Below are positions 1 through 42,241 of a DNA stretch of 42,241 bases, one piece after another (position 1 is the first letter of the stretch; every line of letters starts with the position of its first letter). Source of the DNA: Candidatus Kapaibacterium sp. (GTDB lineage Bacteria > Bacteroidota > Ignavibacteria > Kapaibacteriales > UBA4661); contig RDXM01000112.1 of the NCBI GenBank assembly GCA_004292595.1, forward strand, positions 1 through 42,241, written 5' to 3'. The notes under the pieces were generated by a model. The model saw only the letters and a list, made by a program, of their open reading frames with translations. It made no database searches and had not been told where the DNA came from. Both the position numbers and the translations under genes were made by a program.

Positions 1-64
1 TCTTGTCTGTGGTCGTCGCCTGAAGCCCGCACCAACACGCACAGACAGGAATGTCTGTGCCACT
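1..64 (-). repeat. Family A hairpin repeat, copy 1 (cut by window edge)
   Basis: The segment holds one complete arm (ending in tctgtgccact) and part of the other arm (tcttgtctgtg). Between them lies the family loop, read on the minus strand as gtgttggtgcggg. Its missing end lies outside the window. The flank up to about position 100 also matches the flank of the copy near 38570, so this copy belongs to a longer sub-type. There is no coding content. Confidence 0.85.
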
Positions 65-3122: not shown

Positions 3123-3125
3123 ATT

Positions 3126-3235
3126 ATACCGTTTCGATTGTAAAATGAATAGTTTCAATTCTCCGAAACAAGGCAGCATACTGCCTTGCTCAAATCAAAG
3201 TATTCAAAATACAGTCAAAACGGTCAAAACGGTAT
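3126..3235. repeat. Family B nested palindrome element, copy 1
   Basis: This element of about 110 bp begins with ataccgttt and ends with the exact reverse complement aaacggtat. Its two halves form an imperfect palindrome centred on caaggcagcatactgccttg. It starts only 4 bases after the HxlR stop codon. Related copies lie at 38601-38696 (inside a family A element) and, as a short core, at 25839-25866. Confidence 0.85.
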
Positions 3236-11596: not shown

Positions 11597-11675
11597 AGTG
11601 GCACAGACATTCCTGTCTGTGTATTACCGCCTGAAACCTGCACCAACACTCACAGACAAGAATGTCTGTGCCACT
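11597..11675 (-). repeat. Family A hairpin repeat, copy 2
   Basis: The two arms agtggcacagacattcctgt and its near-perfect complement ending tctgtgccact enclose the family loop, read on the minus strand as gtgagtgttggtgcaggttt. It lies between the DUF6588-like gene and hisF. The 5' neighbour aggcttc before the arm is shared with the copy at 30135. Confidence 0.9.
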
Positions 11676-15596: not shown

Positions 15597-16418
15597 TTAT
15601 TTTATGACCACATTTGGCAGAATACCGCGAATGCGCGTCAGTTCAATTTCTGAAATAAGATTTCCCGAAAGGCGTAATTCTTTCAGCTTTACCAATTTTT
15701 CAATACCGATAGGAAGCGTGGTAAGATTATTTCCGCTCAAATCCAGAATGAGCAAATTGGTCAATTTCCCGATTTCTGGCGGTAAGGTTTCAATTTGGTT
15801 ATTGTCCAAATATAACTCACGCACATTTTTCAGCCAACCAATGCTCGGCGGAATGTAGGTAAGGTAATTACGGCTTAAATACAGAACATTCAAGCCGACC
15901 ATATTGCCAATAAGTGCGGGAATATCTTCTAATTCATTATCGCTCACATCGAAAGCCCGCATATTGACAAGCTGACCGATAGTATTGGGGAGCTTTGTCA
16001 TGCGATTACGTCGCACATAGAGTACTTGCAAGTTTTTCAAATTCCCAATGCTCGCTGGCAAGCCACGCAGATTGTTTCTGTTCACATATAATTCTTGCAA
16101 GTTATACAGCTCGCTAATATTCGCAGGAATCTCTGTAAGTCGTTGAATTTCTAAGTCTATGCGGTAAACTTGGTCGCGCTCGGTGAGAGCTTTTTCTATG
16201 GATTTATAGAAGGGAAGAGCCGCCAATTTTGCCGAATCCATAAGCGGTGCCGCACCCTGCGAGTGAGATTGCGAAAGGTTGTTTGTGAGATCCTGCCCTG
16301 AGGGCTTTTTTTGCGTTTGTGCTTGCAAAAGCGTATTGCTCACAAGGGAAACACCGACGAGCGCGATGGCGACAAGTCTCGTAGAAACTTGGAATGGCGA
16401 GTATTGAACGAAATTCAT
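15597..16418 (-). CDS. Secreted leucine-rich-repeat protein
   Basis: This 273-residue protein has a signal peptide (about residues 1-33, ending LLQAQ). A polar segment follows, then about seven 23-residue leucine-rich repeats of the pattern LPxxIGxLxNLxxLYLxxN (from about residue 95 to the end). The repeats are very regular, as in bacterial plant-type LRR proteins, and should form a curved solenoid for protein binding. There is no T9SS sorting domain, lipobox or membrane anchor, so it is probably periplasmic or released. No enzymatic domain is attached. Its partner is unknown. It lies between creD and the methyltransferase on the same strand with short gaps. Confidence 0.9.
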   Translation of the reverse strand: MNFVQYSPFQVSTRLVAIALVGVSLVSNTLLQAQTQKKPSGQDLTNNLSQSHSQGAAPLMDSAKLAALPFYKSIEKALTERDQVYRIDLEIQRLTEIPANISELYNLQELYVNRNNLRGLPASIGNLKNLQVLYVRRNRMTKLPNTIGQLVNMRAFDVSDNELEDIPALIGNMVGLNVLYLSRNYLTYIPPSIGWLKNVRELYLDNNQIETLPPEIGKLTNLLILDLSGNNLTTLPIGIEKLVKLKELRLSGNLISEIELTRIRGILPNVVIK

Positions 16419-20763: not shown

Positions 20764-20951
20764 TTGTCAGGTCTCAGCAATGAAGAGGGGACGCAGATGA
20801 AGATGATTGAATTGATTAAAGATGATTAAACATGATTAAACATGATAAAGTAAATGTGCTTACACCTTTGATGTTTCCTACTCTGTTCATCATCTTCATC
20901 CATTCAATCATCTTCATCTGCGTCCAAAAAAATCATGACCTAACCAGTCAC
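20764..20951. repeat. Family D inverted-repeat element, copy 1
   Basis: Two perfect 23-base inverted arms (20789-20811 and 20903-20925, reading acgcagatgaagatgattg and its complement) lie inside imperfect terminal repeats (gtcaggtctc and its diverged counterpart before ccagtcac). The centre is AT-rich, with three repeats of gattaaa type. It fills the gap upstream of comM and downstream of the YdeI-family gene. A second copy lies at 42145. Confidence 0.85.
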
Positions 20952-21569: not shown

Positions 21570-21910
21570 TATTTTTGAACGATGAAATTTGAGGAATGAG
21601 GGCTGAAATGCAAGGGTGGCGTGAAGCTCTCGCTTCTTGACGCAAAGCTGTCAGCGAGGGTTTCACTTTATTTTGCTCACTCTCTTCCACTAAAATTACA
21701 GTAATTCATCGTAAAATCGTCGTAAAATCGTGGTATTTTTCTCAACATTTGCGCGGAAACTTTTTTTGTGCGGAGTTTTTTTTTATTTTGTCGCACTCTA
21801 AACCGTTGGCAACACATTTGGCAGCATTGTCCGCTCTGTTCTTGGTGGTGCCGTCCAAATCCACTTTTCTTGTGATTTTTACTTTCTTCATTTTCAAAGG
21901 GCTGAATCGT
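21570..21910. other. Intergenic region between divergent genes
   Basis: No gene was found in these 341 bases between the YdeI-family gene (-) and the OmpA-family gene (+). The stretch 21713-21735 repeats cgtaaaatcgt. The stretch 21630-21666 can form a weak hairpin from ctcgct and agcgag. The reading frame of the OmpA gene is open back to an upstream start at 21749, but those codons encode no recognisable domain. Promoters for both genes should lie here; no clear consensus was assigned. Confidence 0.6.
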
Positions 21911-24214
21911 ATGACTTCCCGTGTTCTTCGTGTCCTTACGGTGCTATGCGCATTTGTAGCAATAAGTACCAGCACCACACTCACCCCGTCCCTCTTGGCG
22001 CAAACCGATACCAGCACAGCATCGCGCATCAACTTCGACGACCTCACCGCCGATGCCGATAAACCCTTGTTTCTCCGCTATGGTATTTTTGGTGGGCATA
22101 ACTGGAACTGGCACGATGCTAATTTTACTGACTTTCAGCCTTTTCCATCGTGCTGCGGAACATTTTACGGCTTTTCAGAAGCAAATTTGCGCTGGTACGC
22201 GGGAGCATTGTTTGAAACGCCTTTTCAAATGCCACAAATCCAGAATCGCTTAGGTTTTGCGATGCGCCTCAGCTATACAGATTACGGTGTTCGCCTTTCA
22301 AAGACAGAACAACTTTTGGCAATTACTCGTGCGAACCGCGCCGAAGAAGTACCTATTGAATTCAGCAAAAATATCACTCTTCAAGCTATTGCGTTAGAGC
22401 CAATGCTGACGTATCGCCCATTGGATGCGCTCTCCATCTATCTTGGCATTCGAGCAAATTATTACTTCAATGCGCGATTCTCTTCGATTGAACGTTTGGC
22501 AACAGATACCGTGAACTTCCTCTTGCCAAGTGGCCGTGTTTCCAGCACACGCAATCCCATTGATACAACTATCCCATCGTTAAATCCTCTGAACCTCGCA
22601 GCAGTAGCGGGTTTGAGCTATGAAATTCCGTTGGATGCAAATGGTAAATGGATGATTGCACCAGAAGCATTTTTTATGTTTGGCGCACTGCCGCTTGGAG
22701 CGTTGTCAAGCCCAACCAGCAGCCCGCTTGTGCGCCGTGTGCAGCTTTCTCCACGAGAAGGAGATAAAACAGAAGGTCCTGGAACATGGACATTCAACAA
22801 CCTCCGCGCAGGTCTCTCGCTTCGTTATTCGCCGTATCGCACCATCCGCCCAGAGCTTACACCTGCCTTGCAGGAAACGATTAAGCAAATCAAAAAGCTG
22901 GACAGCGCGATTACGGTGGAACGCCAGCAAAATGCAAAACGTTTGCAGCAGGTGGATTCTATCAACAAAGCAATCACCGCGAAAGTGGCGGAATTGAAAA
23001 AAGTCGGTATTAGCGTCAGCATCACGAAAGTGGTGGGTGTGGATGCCGACGGGCGCGAAATTCCGAACCCGAAACTCGTGGTGGAACAGTTCCGCAAGTC
23101 GCTTACGCAGCCGATATTGCCGACGGTCTTTTTTGAAGAAAATTCCTTTACCTTGCCGACGCGCTATCGCCGCTTGAAAGCTGCCGACCGAGGCTCCTTC
23201 AAGCTCGCCGAACTCGGTGGCAAAGGGAATTTGGATGTGTATCGTCAAATTTTGAATGTCATTGGTAAGCGTATGGAAGAGAACCCAGCAGCCGTGCTGT
23301 TTCTGACGGGCTGCAATGCCAACGTCGGACCAGAAGCGGGCAATCAAAAACTCTCGGAACAACGCGCTCAAACTATCAGTGATTATCTGCAAGATGTCTG
23401 GAAAATTCCCGCAAAGCGTATGATTATCCAAAAGCGCGATTTGCCAGAAAACCCCGCGAGTAGTGCTGATGCAAACGGTGCAGCCGAAAATCGCCGCGTG
23501 GATTTGTCCTCGAATTTACCAGAAATTTTCGCGCCCGTTGTGAGCGACCAAGTAGCGCGTATTCCGAATCCGCCGACACTGCGTTTTGGTATTGAAATCA
23601 ATGCTGGTGCGGGCTTGAAGCAATGGAACTTGGAAGCAACGCAGTTCAATGATGACGAATCGGTTACCTTGCGGGAGTTCAGTGGTACGGGCAAATACGA
23701 CCCGCAAATTGACTGGAAACTCGACCAAGAGCCAGCAACTGTGCCGCCTTCAGGACAAGACATGACCGTGCAGCTTACCATGACGGACATCAACAACAAA
23801 AACGCCGACGCGCCGCTTGTTTCCGTGCCAGTGGAGCAGATTAACGTGCAGAAAAAAGAACTGGATGCAAAAGGCGATAAGCGCATTGATGTGTACGACA
23901 TTTTAGGCTTTGCAGGCGGCATGAATCCGAGCTTGGATGAAATCAATACGAAAACATTGAACGACCTCAAAGCAAAGCTCAAACCAGACGCAAGTATCTT
24001 TATTAGCGCCTACACCGATAATACAGGCGATGCCGCACAAAACAAAGACCTCGCTAAAAAACGCGCTGATTTCGTTGCGAAAACGCTTGGTGTGTCGAAT
24101 GCAAAAATCACGGCTGTTGGTCCGACGACGTTGCACGAAAATCAATCGCCCGACGGCAGAATGTACAATCGTCTTGTGCGCGTAGAAGTACAAACACCGA
24201 TAAGCGGGAAGTAA
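21911..24214 (+). CDS. OmpA-family protein: beta-barrel plus two OmpA-like domains
   Basis: This 767-residue envelope protein is predicted to link the outer membrane to peptidoglycan. The ATG at 21911 gives a signal peptide (MTSRVLRVLTVLCAFVAIST, cleaved near LLAQ). Residues to about 320 form a barrel like that of the 3343-4161 protein (ALSIYLGIRANYYF, AVAGLSYEIPLD, PEAFFMFG, NNLRAGLSLRYSPY). A coiled-coil segment follows (ETIKQIKKLDSAITVERQQN). The first OmpA-like domain (about 395-540) holds LFLTGCNANVGPEAGNQKLSEQRA and ENRRVDL. A beta-rich linker leads to a second, C-terminal OmpA-like domain (about 670-760) with FISAYTDNTGDAAQNKDLAKKRADFV and NRLVRVEV. Two tandem OmpA domains are less common than one. 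The function is structural or adhesive by inference. Confidence 0.9.
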   Translation: MTSRVLRVLTVLCAFVAISTSTTLTPSLLAQTDTSTASRINFDDLTADADKPLFLRYGIFGGHNWNWHDANFTDFQPFPSCCGTFYGFSEANLRWYAGALFETPFQMPQIQNRLGFAMRLSYTDYGVRLSKTEQLLAITRANRAEEVPIEFSKNITLQAIALEPMLTYRPLDALSIYLGIRANYYFNARFSSIERLATDTVNFLLPSGRVSSTRNPIDTTIPSLNPLNLAAVAGLSYEIPLDANGKWMIAPEAFFMFGALPLGALSSPTSSPLVRRVQLSPREGDKTEGPGTWTFNNLRAGLSLRYSPYRTIRPELTPALQETIKQIKKLDSAITVERQQNAKRLQQVDSINKAITAKVAELKKVGISVSITKVVGVDADGREIPNPKLVVEQFRKSLTQPILPTVFFEENSFTLPTRYRRLKAADRGSFKLAELGGKGNLDVYRQILNVIGKRMEENPAAVLFLTGCNANVGPEAGNQKLSEQRAQTISDYLQDVWKIPAKRMIIQKRDLPENPASSADANGAAENRRVDLSSNLPEIFAPVVSDQVARIPNPPTLRFGIEINAGAGLKQWNLEATQFNDDESVTLREFSGTGKYDPQIDWKLDQEPATVPPSGQDMTVQLTMTDINNKNADAPLVSVPVEQINVQKKELDAKGDKRIDVYDILGFAGGMNPSLDEINTKTLNDLKAKLKPDASIFISAYTDNTGDAAQNKDLAKKRADFVAKTLGVSNAKITAVGPTTLHENQSPDGRMYNRLVRVEVQTPISGK

Positions 24215-24265
24215 AATCTCTCTTGGGGAATGCCCCAAAATTACATTGATAAACTAAAGGCACAT

Positions 24266-24344
24266 AGTGGCTTGAGACTTCTTAATCTGTGAGTGTTGGC
24301 GCGGGTTTCAGACAACAAACACAGAGAAGAAGTTTCAAGCCATT
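24266..24344 (+). repeat. Family A hairpin repeat, stem-swapped variant
   Basis: The loop (ctgtgagtgttggcgcgggtt) and outer agtggc match family A. The stem arms instead read tggcttgagacttctt and aagaagtttcaagcca, which pair with each other and differ from the acagacattc stem on both sides. Downstream, 24369-24415 holds a small inverted pair gtcattcc/ggaatgac. The 425-base gap from 24215 to 24639 holds no gene. Confidence 0.75.
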
Positions 24345-24480
24345 ACTGTTTTTGACCACTTCTTTTCCGTCATTCCTTCATGCCAATATGCCTACACACA
24401 CCTACGCGGGAATGACAACAAAGCTCCGCACATTGAACTCAACAACGTTTTTTTCTGCTCGACCACGCTGCATCTGTGCG

Positions 24481-24526
24481 TAAAAATAAAAAACCCGAAA
24501 AGCAAGATATAATCTTGGTTTCGGGT
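24481..24526 (-). terminator. Rho-independent terminator of rpoD
   Basis: The hairpin acccgaaa (24493-24500) pairs with tttcgggt (24519-24526), with inner aagat/atctt pairing. On the minus strand a T-rich run follows (A-rich at 24481-24492). It lies about 115 bases beyond the rpoD stop codon. Confidence 0.85.
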
Positions 24527-24639
24527 CTGCAAGTAGGGGTTACCTAGATGTGAATGGAAAACGGGAATCAAGGACGTTTTTGCCCTCTGTCCCAGTCGTC
24601 GCGCTGCTTCTAAGCAGGTTTATTTTCTACAATTTTTCT

Positions 24640-25503
24640 TTACCCAAGATACGCACGAAGAGCTTTTGAGCGTGAGGCATGGCGCAAGCGGCGAATAGCT
24701 TTCTCCTTGATTTGGCGCACACGCTCGCGGGTAAGATTAAAGCGTTCACCAATTTCTTCCAGCGTGAGAGAATGCTCGTTGTCCAAACCAAAGTAGAGAC
24801 GGACGACTTCTGCTTCGCGCTCAGAAAGCGTCGAAAGGGCGCGGCGTACCTCAACGCGGAGTGATTCTGCCATCAAGCCATGGTCTGGTGGTGGTTGTTG
24901 GTCGTTGGGGAGTACGTCCAAAAGGCGATTATCTTCGCCGTCGTTGAAGGGCGCATCAACAGACAAATGACGACCAGAAATCTTAATGGTATCGGTTACT
25001 TCCGACATACTCATTTCGAGTTGGTCGGCAAGTTCTGCGCTGGTGGGTTCGCGTTCAAGAGCTTGCTCCATCTCGCTATATTTTTTACCAATTTTGTTCA
25101 ATGCGCCAACGCGATTGAGCGGTAAACGCACGATGCGCGACTGTTCGGCGAGAGCTTGCAGGATTGATTGACGAATCCACCACACAGCGTAGGAGATAAA
25201 CTTGAAGCCGCGTGTTTCGTCGAAGCGTTTTGCAGCTTTAATCAAGCCTAAATTCCCTTCATTGATAAGGTCGCCGAGCGACAAGCCTTGATTTTGATAC
25301 TGCTTTGCCACTGATACAACAAAGCGCAAATTTGCTTTGGTGAGCCGCTCCATTGCTCGCTGTCCTTCATCGCCGCCGCGTTTGATTTGCTTGGCGATTT
25401 CAATTTCCTCGTCTCCTGTTAAAAGTTCTACGCGCCCGATTTCTTGCAAATATTTGTCAAGCGACTGGCTTTCGCGGTTTGTGTACTGTTTTGTTATGCG
25501 CAT
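24640..25503 (-). CDS. rpoD: Primary RNA polymerase sigma factor (Bacteroidota type)
   Basis: This 287-residue sigma-70 factor is the principal housekeeping sigma subunit, recognising -7/-33 type promoters in this lineage. The short N-terminus [20 protein letters not shown] lacks region 1.1, as is typical of Bacteroidota and Chlorobiota. Region 1.2 is [19 protein letters not shown]. Region 2 holds [20 protein letters not shown] and [20 protein letters not shown] (94-113). Region 3 follows, and region 4 (about 222-275) has [20 protein letters not shown]. All core regions are intact. It is transcribed divergently from recA and ends before a good terminator. Confidence 0.98.
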
Positions 25504-30134: not shown

Positions 30135-30211
30135 AGTGGCACAGACATTCTTGTCTGTGTTTTTACCCGAACCCCGCACCAACATTCACAGACAAGAATG
30201 TCTGTGCCACT
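30135..30211 (-). repeat. Family A hairpin repeat, copy 3
   Basis: Arms agtggcacagacattcttgt and the complement ending tctgtgccact enclose the family loop, read on the minus strand as gttggtgcggggttc. It lies upstream of the rhomboid gene, in the gap after the ferredoxin gene. The aggcttc before the arm is shared with the copy at 11597. Confidence 0.9.
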
Positions 30212-32290: not shown

Positions 32291-32371
32291 AGTGGCACAG
32301 ACATTCTTGTCTGTGAGTGTTAGTGCAAATTTCAGGTGAATTAACACAGACAAGACGATGTCTGTGCCACT
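32291..32371 (+). repeat. Family A hairpin repeat, copy 4
   Basis: Arms agtggcacagacattcttgt and gatgtctgtgccact enclose the loop gtgagtgttagtgcaaattt. Within the 570-base tonB-manC gap it follows the transposase relic by 14 bases. The right arm holds an extra cg, so the stem has a bulge. No gene is seen in the gap. Confidence 0.88.
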
Positions 32372-36732: not shown

Positions 36733-36810
36733 AGTGGCACGGACATTCTTGTCTGTGAGTGTTGGTGCGGGTTTTAAGTGGAAAACACAGACAAGAATGT
36801 CTGTGCCACT
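36733..36810 (+). repeat. Family A hairpin repeat, copy 5
   Basis: Arms agtggcacggacattcttgt and the complement ending tctgtgccact enclose the loop gtgagtgttggtgcgggttt. Pairing extends outward (aaaaacat before and atgttttt after). It lies directly upstream of the MlaE-like gene, whose in-frame ATG at 36813 belongs to the extended stem. Confidence 0.9.
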
Positions 36811-38569: not shown

Positions 38570-38726
38570 AGTGGCACAGACATTCTTGTCTGTGAGTGTT
38601 ATACCGTTTCGATTGTAAAATGAATACTTTCAATTCTCCGAAACAAGGCAGCATGCTGCCTTGCTAAAATCAAAGTATTCAAAGTATAGTCAAAACACAA
38701 ACACAGACAAGAATATCTGTGCCACT
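38570..38726 (+). repeat. Family A hairpin repeat, copy 6, with a nested family B element
   Basis: The arms agtggcacagacattcttgt and atatctgtgccact are those of family A, but they lie far apart. The loop starts gtgagtgtt and then continues as a family B element (38601-38696), and acaaacacag resumes the family A arm. The expected loop sequence ggtgcgggttt is missing. The flank 38535-38569 matches that of copy 1. The 458-base gap from 38301 to 38758 holds no gene. Confidence 0.88.
38601..38696. repeat. Family B element nested in family A copy 6
   Basis: It begins ataccgtttcgattgtaaaa, as in the copy at 3126, and has the same caaggcagcatgctgccttg core. The right end stops at gtcaaaac, so the aaacggtat terminus of the first copy is absent. 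It is about 96 bases against 110. Confidence 0.85.
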
Positions 38727-42144: not shown

Positions 42145-42241
42145 GTAACTGGTCAGGTCTCAACAATGAAGAGGGGACGCAGATGAAGATGATTGAATGG
42201 ATGAAGATGATATTGATAAAAAAAAATCAGAGCGTGAATGC
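42145..42241. repeat. Family D element, copy 2 (cut by window edge)
   Basis: It starts gtaactggtcaggtc and continues acgcagatgaagatgattga. It then matches the opposite arm of copy 1 (20764-20951) over 37 bases in total. The rest is outside the window. It lies upstream of folC. Confidence 0.8.

Follow-up and report, generated by a model that had tools for sequence, protein, structure and literature searches.

Several features of the element described here have been published before: REPINs, heterodimers of REPs, GTGG tags and REPs residing in repair genes are on record (PMC3116915, PMC3733652, PMC2817692), and comparisons with these systems are confined here to the parts of the sources drawn upon. 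In the REPIN of Pseudomonas fluorescens SBW25, an inverted REP pair with a spacer is present in hundreds of copies and is linked to RAYT genes (PMC3116915). GTAG REP dimers likewise consist of tagged hairpins that occur as head-to-head and tail-to-tail dimers and as heterodimers, with sub-families that differ by alternative complementary stem residues and with some REPs inside DNA-repair genes; REP dimers inside long palindromes are described for A. variabilis, and a GTGG tag for GTAG-20 of O. terrae (PMC3733652). The BIMEs of E. coli are mosaic dimers of REP types (y, z1 and z2) with one transposase, TnpAREP, which recognises single-stranded REP via its tag and hairpin, and in one TnpAREP system a GTGG tag moved cleavage to CC (PMC8266576). 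Finally, the Rickettsia palindromic elements are palindromic repeats that lie in frame within proteins (as described in PMC3733652).

The locus considered here resembles each of these systems in the respects just listed, and departs from each of them as characterized in those same parts of the literature. More specifically, it differs (i) from the SBW25 REPIN in its 28-nt spacer, in the mixing of two arm types within one dimer family, in a RAYT embedded in recG and in the placement of many copies inside MITE-like shells that bear target duplications (PMC3116915), (ii) from the GTAG REP dimers in that its shells are of three or more kinds, distinguished by their ends, and in that an entire RAYT lies in a repair gene (PMC3733652), (iii) from the E. 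coli BIME in a tag that is GTGG, not GTAG, and in a type 1 without the conserved stem bulge (PMC8266576) and (iv) from the Rickettsia elements in that the recG insert carries a transposase gene (PMC3733652).

The window, i.e. the whole stretch of DNA that was analysed, comprises the 42,241 nt of contig RDXM01000112.1 from assembly GCA_004292595.1 (4.6 Mb in 199 contigs; hereafter G000). At positions 24267-24343 it holds two inverted arms of about 24 bases, with the 28-base spacer of the family between them (Table 1). This feature is quite probably a REPIN/BIME-type REP dimer, consisting of two inverted GTGG-tagged arms, both of the type referred to below as type 2, around the 28-nt spacer, and lying in a decayed MITE-like shell between convergent genes. 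The traits by which REPs and REPINs are usually recognised were found: a tetranucleotide tag at the 5′ end, a high copy number, inverted dimers with a short spacer and a REP-flanked RAYT gene. The single hairpin of 20-50 nt that is expected of a REP was found for a lone type-1 arm (-7.6 kcal/mol, z -5.05) and is weak for a lone type-2 arm (-1.8 kcal/mol, z -1.95), which is therefore a poor hairpin. In the window copy, the GTGG tag of the right arm reads ATGG, and the two arms carry private mutations that differ between left and right, so its stem is no longer perfect; the DNA fold of the 81-nt segment around it reaches -23.9 kcal/mol (z -8.85), far better than shuffles. An OmpA-family gene on one side and a sigma-70 family gene on the other both point their 3′ ends at the element, which thus sits between convergent genes.

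Table 1. Features of the window (positions in the window) and RAYT-bearing recG loci of three genomes (positions in the named locus)
Feature	Position	Strand	Remark
Upstream gene, OmpA-family protein	21749-24214	+	3′ end toward element
Composite element: REPIN core within old S-type palindromic shell	24227-24376	+	ends GGAATG...CATTCC
Left REP arm, type 2	24267-24291	+	reads GTGGCTTGAGACTTCTTAATCTGTG; GTGG tag 24267-24270; one base extra
28-nt spacer (the 'loop' of the sequence-only reading)	24292-24319	+	reads AGTGTTGGCGCGGGTTTCAGACAACAAA
Right REP arm, type 2	24320-24343	-	ATGGCTTGAAACTTCTTCTCTGTG on minus strand; 3 mismatches to consensus
Downstream gene, sigma-70 family	24640-25503	-	3′ end toward element
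Type 1/1 REPIN	11598-11674	.	same family as the copy at 24267-24343
Type 1/1 REPIN in T-type shell	30136-30210	.	9-bp direct repeats CGAAGAATG on both flanks
Type 1/1 REPIN	32292-32370	.	2-base insert in right arm
Type 1/1 REPIN	36734-36809	.	
REPIN, spacer split by another repeat (38599-38696)	38571-38725	.	type-1 arms
Lone type-1 arm at window edge	40-63	-	
RAYT in recG, G000 (contig C139)	L182:379-3195		
RAYT in recG, G006 (contig C10)	L192:7-2949		
RAYT in recG, G007 (contig C58)	L214:3-1559		contig starts just upstream of RAYT; left RecG part unseen

Across the G000 genome, 583 arms of type 1 (GTGGCACAGACATTCTTGTCTGTG) and 52 of type 2 (GTGGCTTGAGACTTCTTGTCTGTG) were found with up to 3 mismatches, while a reversed-pattern control gave 0 matches, and the GTGG tag is present in arms of both types. 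An initial sequence-only reading of the window had described a hairpin that shares its loop (here, the spacer) with other copies and whose stem is replaced on both arms. The letters of both arms and of the spacer are confirmed, and a 17-mer from the spacer occurs 5 times in the window with up to 3 mismatches, against a mean of 0.24 in dinucleotide shuffles, of which 0/100 reach 5. Its view of the stem was right in recognising a distinct type and went too far in speaking of replacement, since the two arm types, optimally aligned, differ by only 4 edits (2 substitutions, 1 insertion and 1 deletion) and the stem has thus been modified rather than replaced. The remaining window copies, for which a near-constant stem had been reported, do all carry type-1 arms, and the suggestion of a sister family with the same loop agrees with the 52 type-2 arms of G000, with 86 more in a sister species (G005) and with the excess of 2/2 dimers there. 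None of the outcomes named as refuting that reading occurred: the variant has further copies in the genome, the loop is shared more often than chance predicts, and more than one stem goes with it.

How the two arm types combine was followed in a G000 sample of 997,401 bases (48 stretches of 16.8 to 20 kb plus the window), in which each arm was allowed at most 4 edits. The stretches were picked on contigs already known to carry copies, so that densities are biased, with no reason seen to think the same of arm types. The sample holds 168 type-1 and 20 type-2 arms, which occur singly as well as in 76 head-to-head dimers (49 of them with the 28-nt spacer), 11 tail-to-tail dimers and 1 head-to-tail pair. 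When the AGTGTTGG side of the spacer is taken as left, the head-to-head dimers divide into 59 of type 1/1, 13 of type 1/2 (among them a doubtful case whose spacer is 14 nt), 2 of type 2/1 and 2 of type 2/2, the window copy being among the last. Type 2 is therefore found mostly on the ACAAA side of the spacer (15/76 right arms versus 4/76 left arms), and if the 19 type-2 arms paired at random, 1.1 dimers of type 2/2 would be expected against the 2 observed (P 0.31). A larger set enriched for type 2 (n=137) gave 93, 34, 5 and 5 dimers of types 1/1, 1/2, 2/1 and 2/2, and a second pass over it (n=139) 94 of type 1/1, 40 mixed and 5 of type 2/2. These five 2/2 dimers, from all G000 loci taken, compare with 2.1 expected (P for at least 5 = 0.046), although that expectation is based on arms with up to 3 mismatches, a limit that arms in two of these dimers exceed. 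In G000 the arm types thus assort near-independently, and, with 15 mixed dimers against 2 of type 2/2 among the 76, the two arms do not as a rule change together.

This family offers a natural test of which hairpin selection acts on in a REPIN, since its arm types mix freely enough in G000 to separate the pairing of a single arm from that of the whole dimer; in G000, the single arm wins. Covariation was tested by shuffling partners, a procedure that keeps the relatedness of copies. Among 170 type-1 arms of the G000 sample (up to 5 mismatches), 22 compensated double changes lie within the arm's own stem, beside 31 uncompensated changes; shuffled 3′ halves yield 2.1 compensated changes on average and never more than 7. 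Since relatedness is retained in the shuffles, the independent compensation events may be few; in 17 of the 22, G-C has replaced A-T at the pair 10/19, which may reflect few events copied many times. The 52 type-2 arms of G000 show at the corresponding pair, 11/19 (hand count; Fisher test run) A-T in 38 cases, G-C in 10, A-C in 4 and G-T in 0. Between the arms of 55 type-1/1 dimers, 2 changes are matched, both in the arm's loop, and 35 are unmatched, the 2 matches standing against 1.2 by shuffling (P 0.36). Compensatory change in G000 is inside single arms, not between arms.

This result bears on two further claims of the sequence-only reading. Its proposal that pairing is kept by coordinated change on both arms is not supported in G000, given the 15 mixed against 2 type 2/2 dimers among 76 and private changes that are unmatched, and covariation of the stem, which it had suggested testing, is found within arms (22 versus 2.1) but not between them (2 versus 1.2). 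It had also named the folded shape and the loop, rather than the stem letters, as what may matter. As the main conserved signal the spacer was rejected, because it is kept less well than the arms, with a mean majority per column of 0.80 versus 0.99, both measured on one set of 32 type-1/1 dimers whose spacer is 28 nt long.

The distribution of the arms among other genomes is narrow. Type-1 arms were found in 7 of the 61 genomes examined, all within one family (583 in G000, 610 in G005, 258 in G007, 200 in G001, 99 in G006 and 2 each in G002 and G009); there are none in G003, G004 and G008, nor in the 51 genomes outside the family. Type-2 arms, searched in eight relatives, number 86 in G005 and 2 in G007 and are absent from G001, G002, G003, G004, G006 and G009. 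The two arms of G007 have GTAG-type tags, the GTAG tag being found in this genome both in a type-2 dimer and at its RAYT. In the whole genome of G005, at least 16 pairs of type-2 arms at 52-bp spacing were counted by hand, while random pairing of its 696 arms (610 + 86) predicts 5.2 and 0/20,000 shuffles reach 16. Stretches of G005 that add up to 800 kb contain 51 dimers, 42 of type 1/1, 3 mixed and 6 of type 2/2 (1.0 expected), type 2 being over-sampled there because these stretches were drawn partly from contigs with listed type-2 arms. The excess implies that the type-2 variant is now a copied homodimer class in the sister species. At one intergenic region, a 2/2 dimer is found in both species (L022 in G000, L279 in G005), with different shell ends.

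Many REPINs lie within MITE-like shells that differ in their ends and in the length of the target duplication, which is 9 bp in some, 8 bp in others and perhaps 3-4 bp in a third kind; the shell classes were derived from flanks oriented by the spacer, and their automatic labels are crude. Terminal inverted repeats and a target-site duplication, the hallmarks of DDE-type MITEs, were found for these shells. T-type shells have the inverted ends CTYTGTACACGACAAAA and a total length of about 151 bp. Of the 23 G000 copies in which both ends could be recognised, 12 stand between exact direct repeats 8 bp or more in length (three of 8, six of 9 and three of 10 bp), versus 0/4403 shuffled partners; the corresponding set of G005 is weak, with direct repeats in 4/11 copies but also in 68/2009 shuffles. 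A search without preset ends, for a direct repeat together with inverted ends, recovered 13/135 elements in G000 (shuffled 15/2682) and 7/57 in G005 (shuffled 3/1118). The elements recovered include U-type shells, which have the ends GGTACTAAATGATT or a variant of them and 8-bp repeats (2 copies in G000, 3 in G005). A third class, S-type, has ends close to GGAATGG. Eight hand-picked S-type copies can be aligned with the window copy over its full length, which places its shell at 24227-24376, and no target duplication is visible beside it. Since 2/2 dimers are found in S, T and U shells alike, arm type and shell reassort. A REP arm lies within 120 bp of 26/27 T-end sites in the G000 sample and of 21/22 in the G005 sample; the palindromes of A. 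variabilis are likewise found beside REPs (PMC3733652). An autonomous T-ended element was sought as a pair of T-ends 250-3500 bp apart, of which there is none in 997 kb of G000 and 800 kb of G005, and no DDE transposase for the shells was found in the sampled sequence.

When parts of G000 and G005 were compared, both flanks were found in the other species for 21/139 elements of G000 and 15/57 of G005. Among 18 loci compared, one U-type element of G005 corresponds to a single-copy target (ATTTGAAC) in G000, and the sole S-type comparison concerns an element of G000 with TAA/CTAA on either side, of which G005 has one copy. For the window copy, the best G005 matches of the flanking genes are about 22 kb apart, so no empty orthologous site could be demonstrated in that species. 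At several other intergenic sites, the place taken by a REPIN in one species is occupied in the other by an unrelated palindromic repeat, for instance a REPIN in G000 and a different palindrome in G005 (L173:7366 and L173:5020 against L268; L019; L178; L090; L074), as if certain intergenic sites turned over palindromic elements.

The sequence-only reading had listed a transposase acting on single strands among the possible recognisers of the loop; such an enzyme is the likely partner of this mobile-DNA hairpin, and a plausible candidate is a RAYT flanked by both arm types. The Pfam model Y1_Tnp has two matches in G000. One lies in frame within a 938-aa ORF on contig C139 that Pfam and NCBIfam identify as RecG, and the other is a contig-edge fragment that scores 97.3 bits with the NCBIfam IS200/IS605 model versus 26 bits with the REP-type model. 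The REP_Tyr_transpos model also has two matches in G000, the second of which is probably the same IS200-type fragment. No complete transposase of the REP type other than the RAYT in recG was located in this genome. Two type-1 arms lie upstream of it, a type-1 and then a type-2 arm downstream, and its HUH (HVH) and Tyr motifs look intact by eye. REP-flanked RAYTs are present in G000, G006 and G007 (in G007, the flanking copies of this REP carry a GTAG tag) and share one site of RecG, between the HRFGVLQRAEL and VMSATPIPRTL stretches. All three score over the Pfam Y1_Tnp cut-off, and with NF047646 (REP_Tyr_transpos, cut-off 80) G007 is over it at 92.3 bits, with G000 (74.9 bits) and G006 (74.7 bits) just under.

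Across the three species, the RAYTs are 47-53% identical and the C-terminal parts of RecG 83-92%. Specifically, the RAYT of G000 is 52.5% identical to that of G006 and 47.1% to that of G007, and between G006 and G007 the RAYTs are 51.8% identical versus 92.5% for the RecG C-terminal parts, with a third codon position identity of 0.41 for RAYT versus 0.58 for RecG. Second codon positions of the RAYTs are kept at 0.70-0.77 versus 0.34-0.44 for third positions, which looks as for a protein under constraint. There is no RAYT in the RecG of the sister genomes G005 (97.0% identical to G000) and G001 (98.6% identical to G006). Judged from these alignments, the pattern would fit repeated gain, loss or replacement at one RecG loop better than a single quiet inheritance, while fast RAYT evolution could also be a source of the divergence. 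The RecG loop of G005 contains another palindrome-coded insert. Away from recG, G005 has two RAYT-family matches, which are probably the same as its two Pfam Y1 matches (one broken, one an intact 192-aa ORF), and the flanks taken around the latter contain no REP arm; the REPs of G005 are therefore without an evident partner, which is the main gap in linking the family to a RAYT. In G001 the sole Y1 match is in another ORF, and a RAYT flanked by this REP was found in neither genome. As G005 has the most arms (610 + 86) and G001 still has 200, REP number and recG RAYT are uncoupled. Among the contigs of other genomes, from which the own species was perhaps excluded, 3/20 candidate RAYT relatives were confirmed, with a best identity of 40%. 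Y1/RAYT domains also lie in frame in other long ORFs (L309:478-3408, L195:1-2616 and L251:1303-3189), namely an N6/N4 DNA methylase, a DUF1156 protein and an ORF for an Eco57I/MmeI-like methylase that runs off the end of its locus, and at least 5 NF047646 matches, among the matches listed, have open frames of more than 400 aa.

By analogy with TnpAREP, the RAYT would read each arm as a single-strand hairpin plus tag, such that the arm may be the unit that is read and the dimer the unit that is copied, with the RAYT in RecG as putative reader. Type 2 could have been born of a small change, mostly in the ACAAA-side arm, that would weaken the single hairpin while the long hairpin is retained in a 2/2 pair; 2/2 dimers would then have formed by arm exchange and been copied as units. 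Copies with 9- or 8-bp duplications are not explained by the RAYT route as known, and separate DDE transposases may move the duplication-flanked shells, with the REPIN as cargo; type 2 has probably spread by both routes. A broader proposal, advanced tentatively and with less than even confidence, is that one REPIN core is common to at least three MITE shells with different transposases, the arm types reassorting among them and a RAYT-type repeat thus travelling within other mobile elements, and that RAYTs repeatedly colonise, in frame, one RecG loop between helicase motifs, so that the host translates a transposase as part of a repair helicase acting at the stalled forks where REP hairpins are exposed. 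The literature searched, with subscription papers and supplementary files outside its scope, yielded no report of a RAYT inside recG (a mention of recG in a RAYT paper is the title of a reference), and a REPIN core common to several shells was not met in it either. Several shells for one core bear on how REPINs spread and persist, and the recG case is a tractable example of a transposase kept in frame within a DNA repair helicase.

Other explanations deserve to be weighed against the REP dimer. The elements might be plain DDE-type MITEs with the arms as MITE-internal palindromes, the likeness to REPs being incidental, as the inverted ends of T and U shells, their duplications (mostly 8-10 bp and 8 bp), the closeness of T ends to REP arms and the U-type insertion of G005 at a one-copy target of G000 could suggest. 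This is rather unlikely, given that the same oriented core lies in shells with unrelated ends and differing duplication lengths, that arms also occur singly and in tail-to-tail dimers, that a RAYT gene is flanked by both arm types and that the GTRG tag is kept. An RNA role, with the hairpin serving mainly as a 3′-UTR element of the OmpA-family gene (a terminator or a stabiliser of the mRNA end), is the least probable account of those considered: hundreds of copies and single-copy sites in the sister species mark mobile DNA, even if the position between the 3′ ends of convergent genes, a run of five T that begins at 24349, few bases past the stem, and the tendency of REPs to lie mostly downstream of coding regions (PMC3733652) would all suit it. 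A known RNA family was rejected, as there is no Rfam match anywhere in the window, and a terminator was rejected on a consensus scan that found nothing at the element and whose loop limit of 8 bases would miss a 28-nt loop.

Selection might instead act on the long stem, in which case the arms would covary and the full hairpin, as RNA or DNA, would be functional with its stem letters free. Stems of the required kind do exist, near-perfect in the window copy and in the type-2 consensus dimer (-32.1 kcal/mol, close to the -32.5 kcal/mol of the 1/1 consensus), and even the mixed 1/2 dimer still folds at -21.4 kcal/mol; the 2/2 dimers of G005, and slightly those of G000, exceed random pairing, an excess that could also reflect the copying of few 2/2 elements. 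Against this stand the predominance of mixed over 2/2 dimers, the unmatched private changes and the tail-to-tail dimers, 9/11 of which combine an A-T arm with one that is G-C (8) or T-C (1), so that the arms mismatch each other, while 8 of those 9 variant arms remain self-paired at that site. As a rule, long-stem covariation is therefore rejected for G000 by partner shuffling and by type assortment, with the 2/2 excess of G005 in its favour, and selection on the long stem is improbable as the explanation of the element, which is better read as a REP dimer.

The window contains further repeats and conserved stretches. A 98-bp repeat that includes the palindrome CAAGGCAGCATGCTGCCTTG is present at 3124-3221 and 38599-38696 (95% identical), the latter copy being the one that breaks a REPIN spacer. 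A perfect 37-bp inverted repeat (20889-20925 and 42175-42211) is part of another dispersed repeat (ATCATCTTCATCC...), and a similar stretch is also found beside a G005 gene. Next to the sigma-70 gene, the block 24488-24601, which has no Rfam match, is 96% identical in G005, and its first part is 85-93% identical in G002, G003, G004 and G007. Lastly, five 45-bp units spaced 69 or 138 bp apart lie within an ORF at 15738-16127 and may be leucine-rich-repeat-like.
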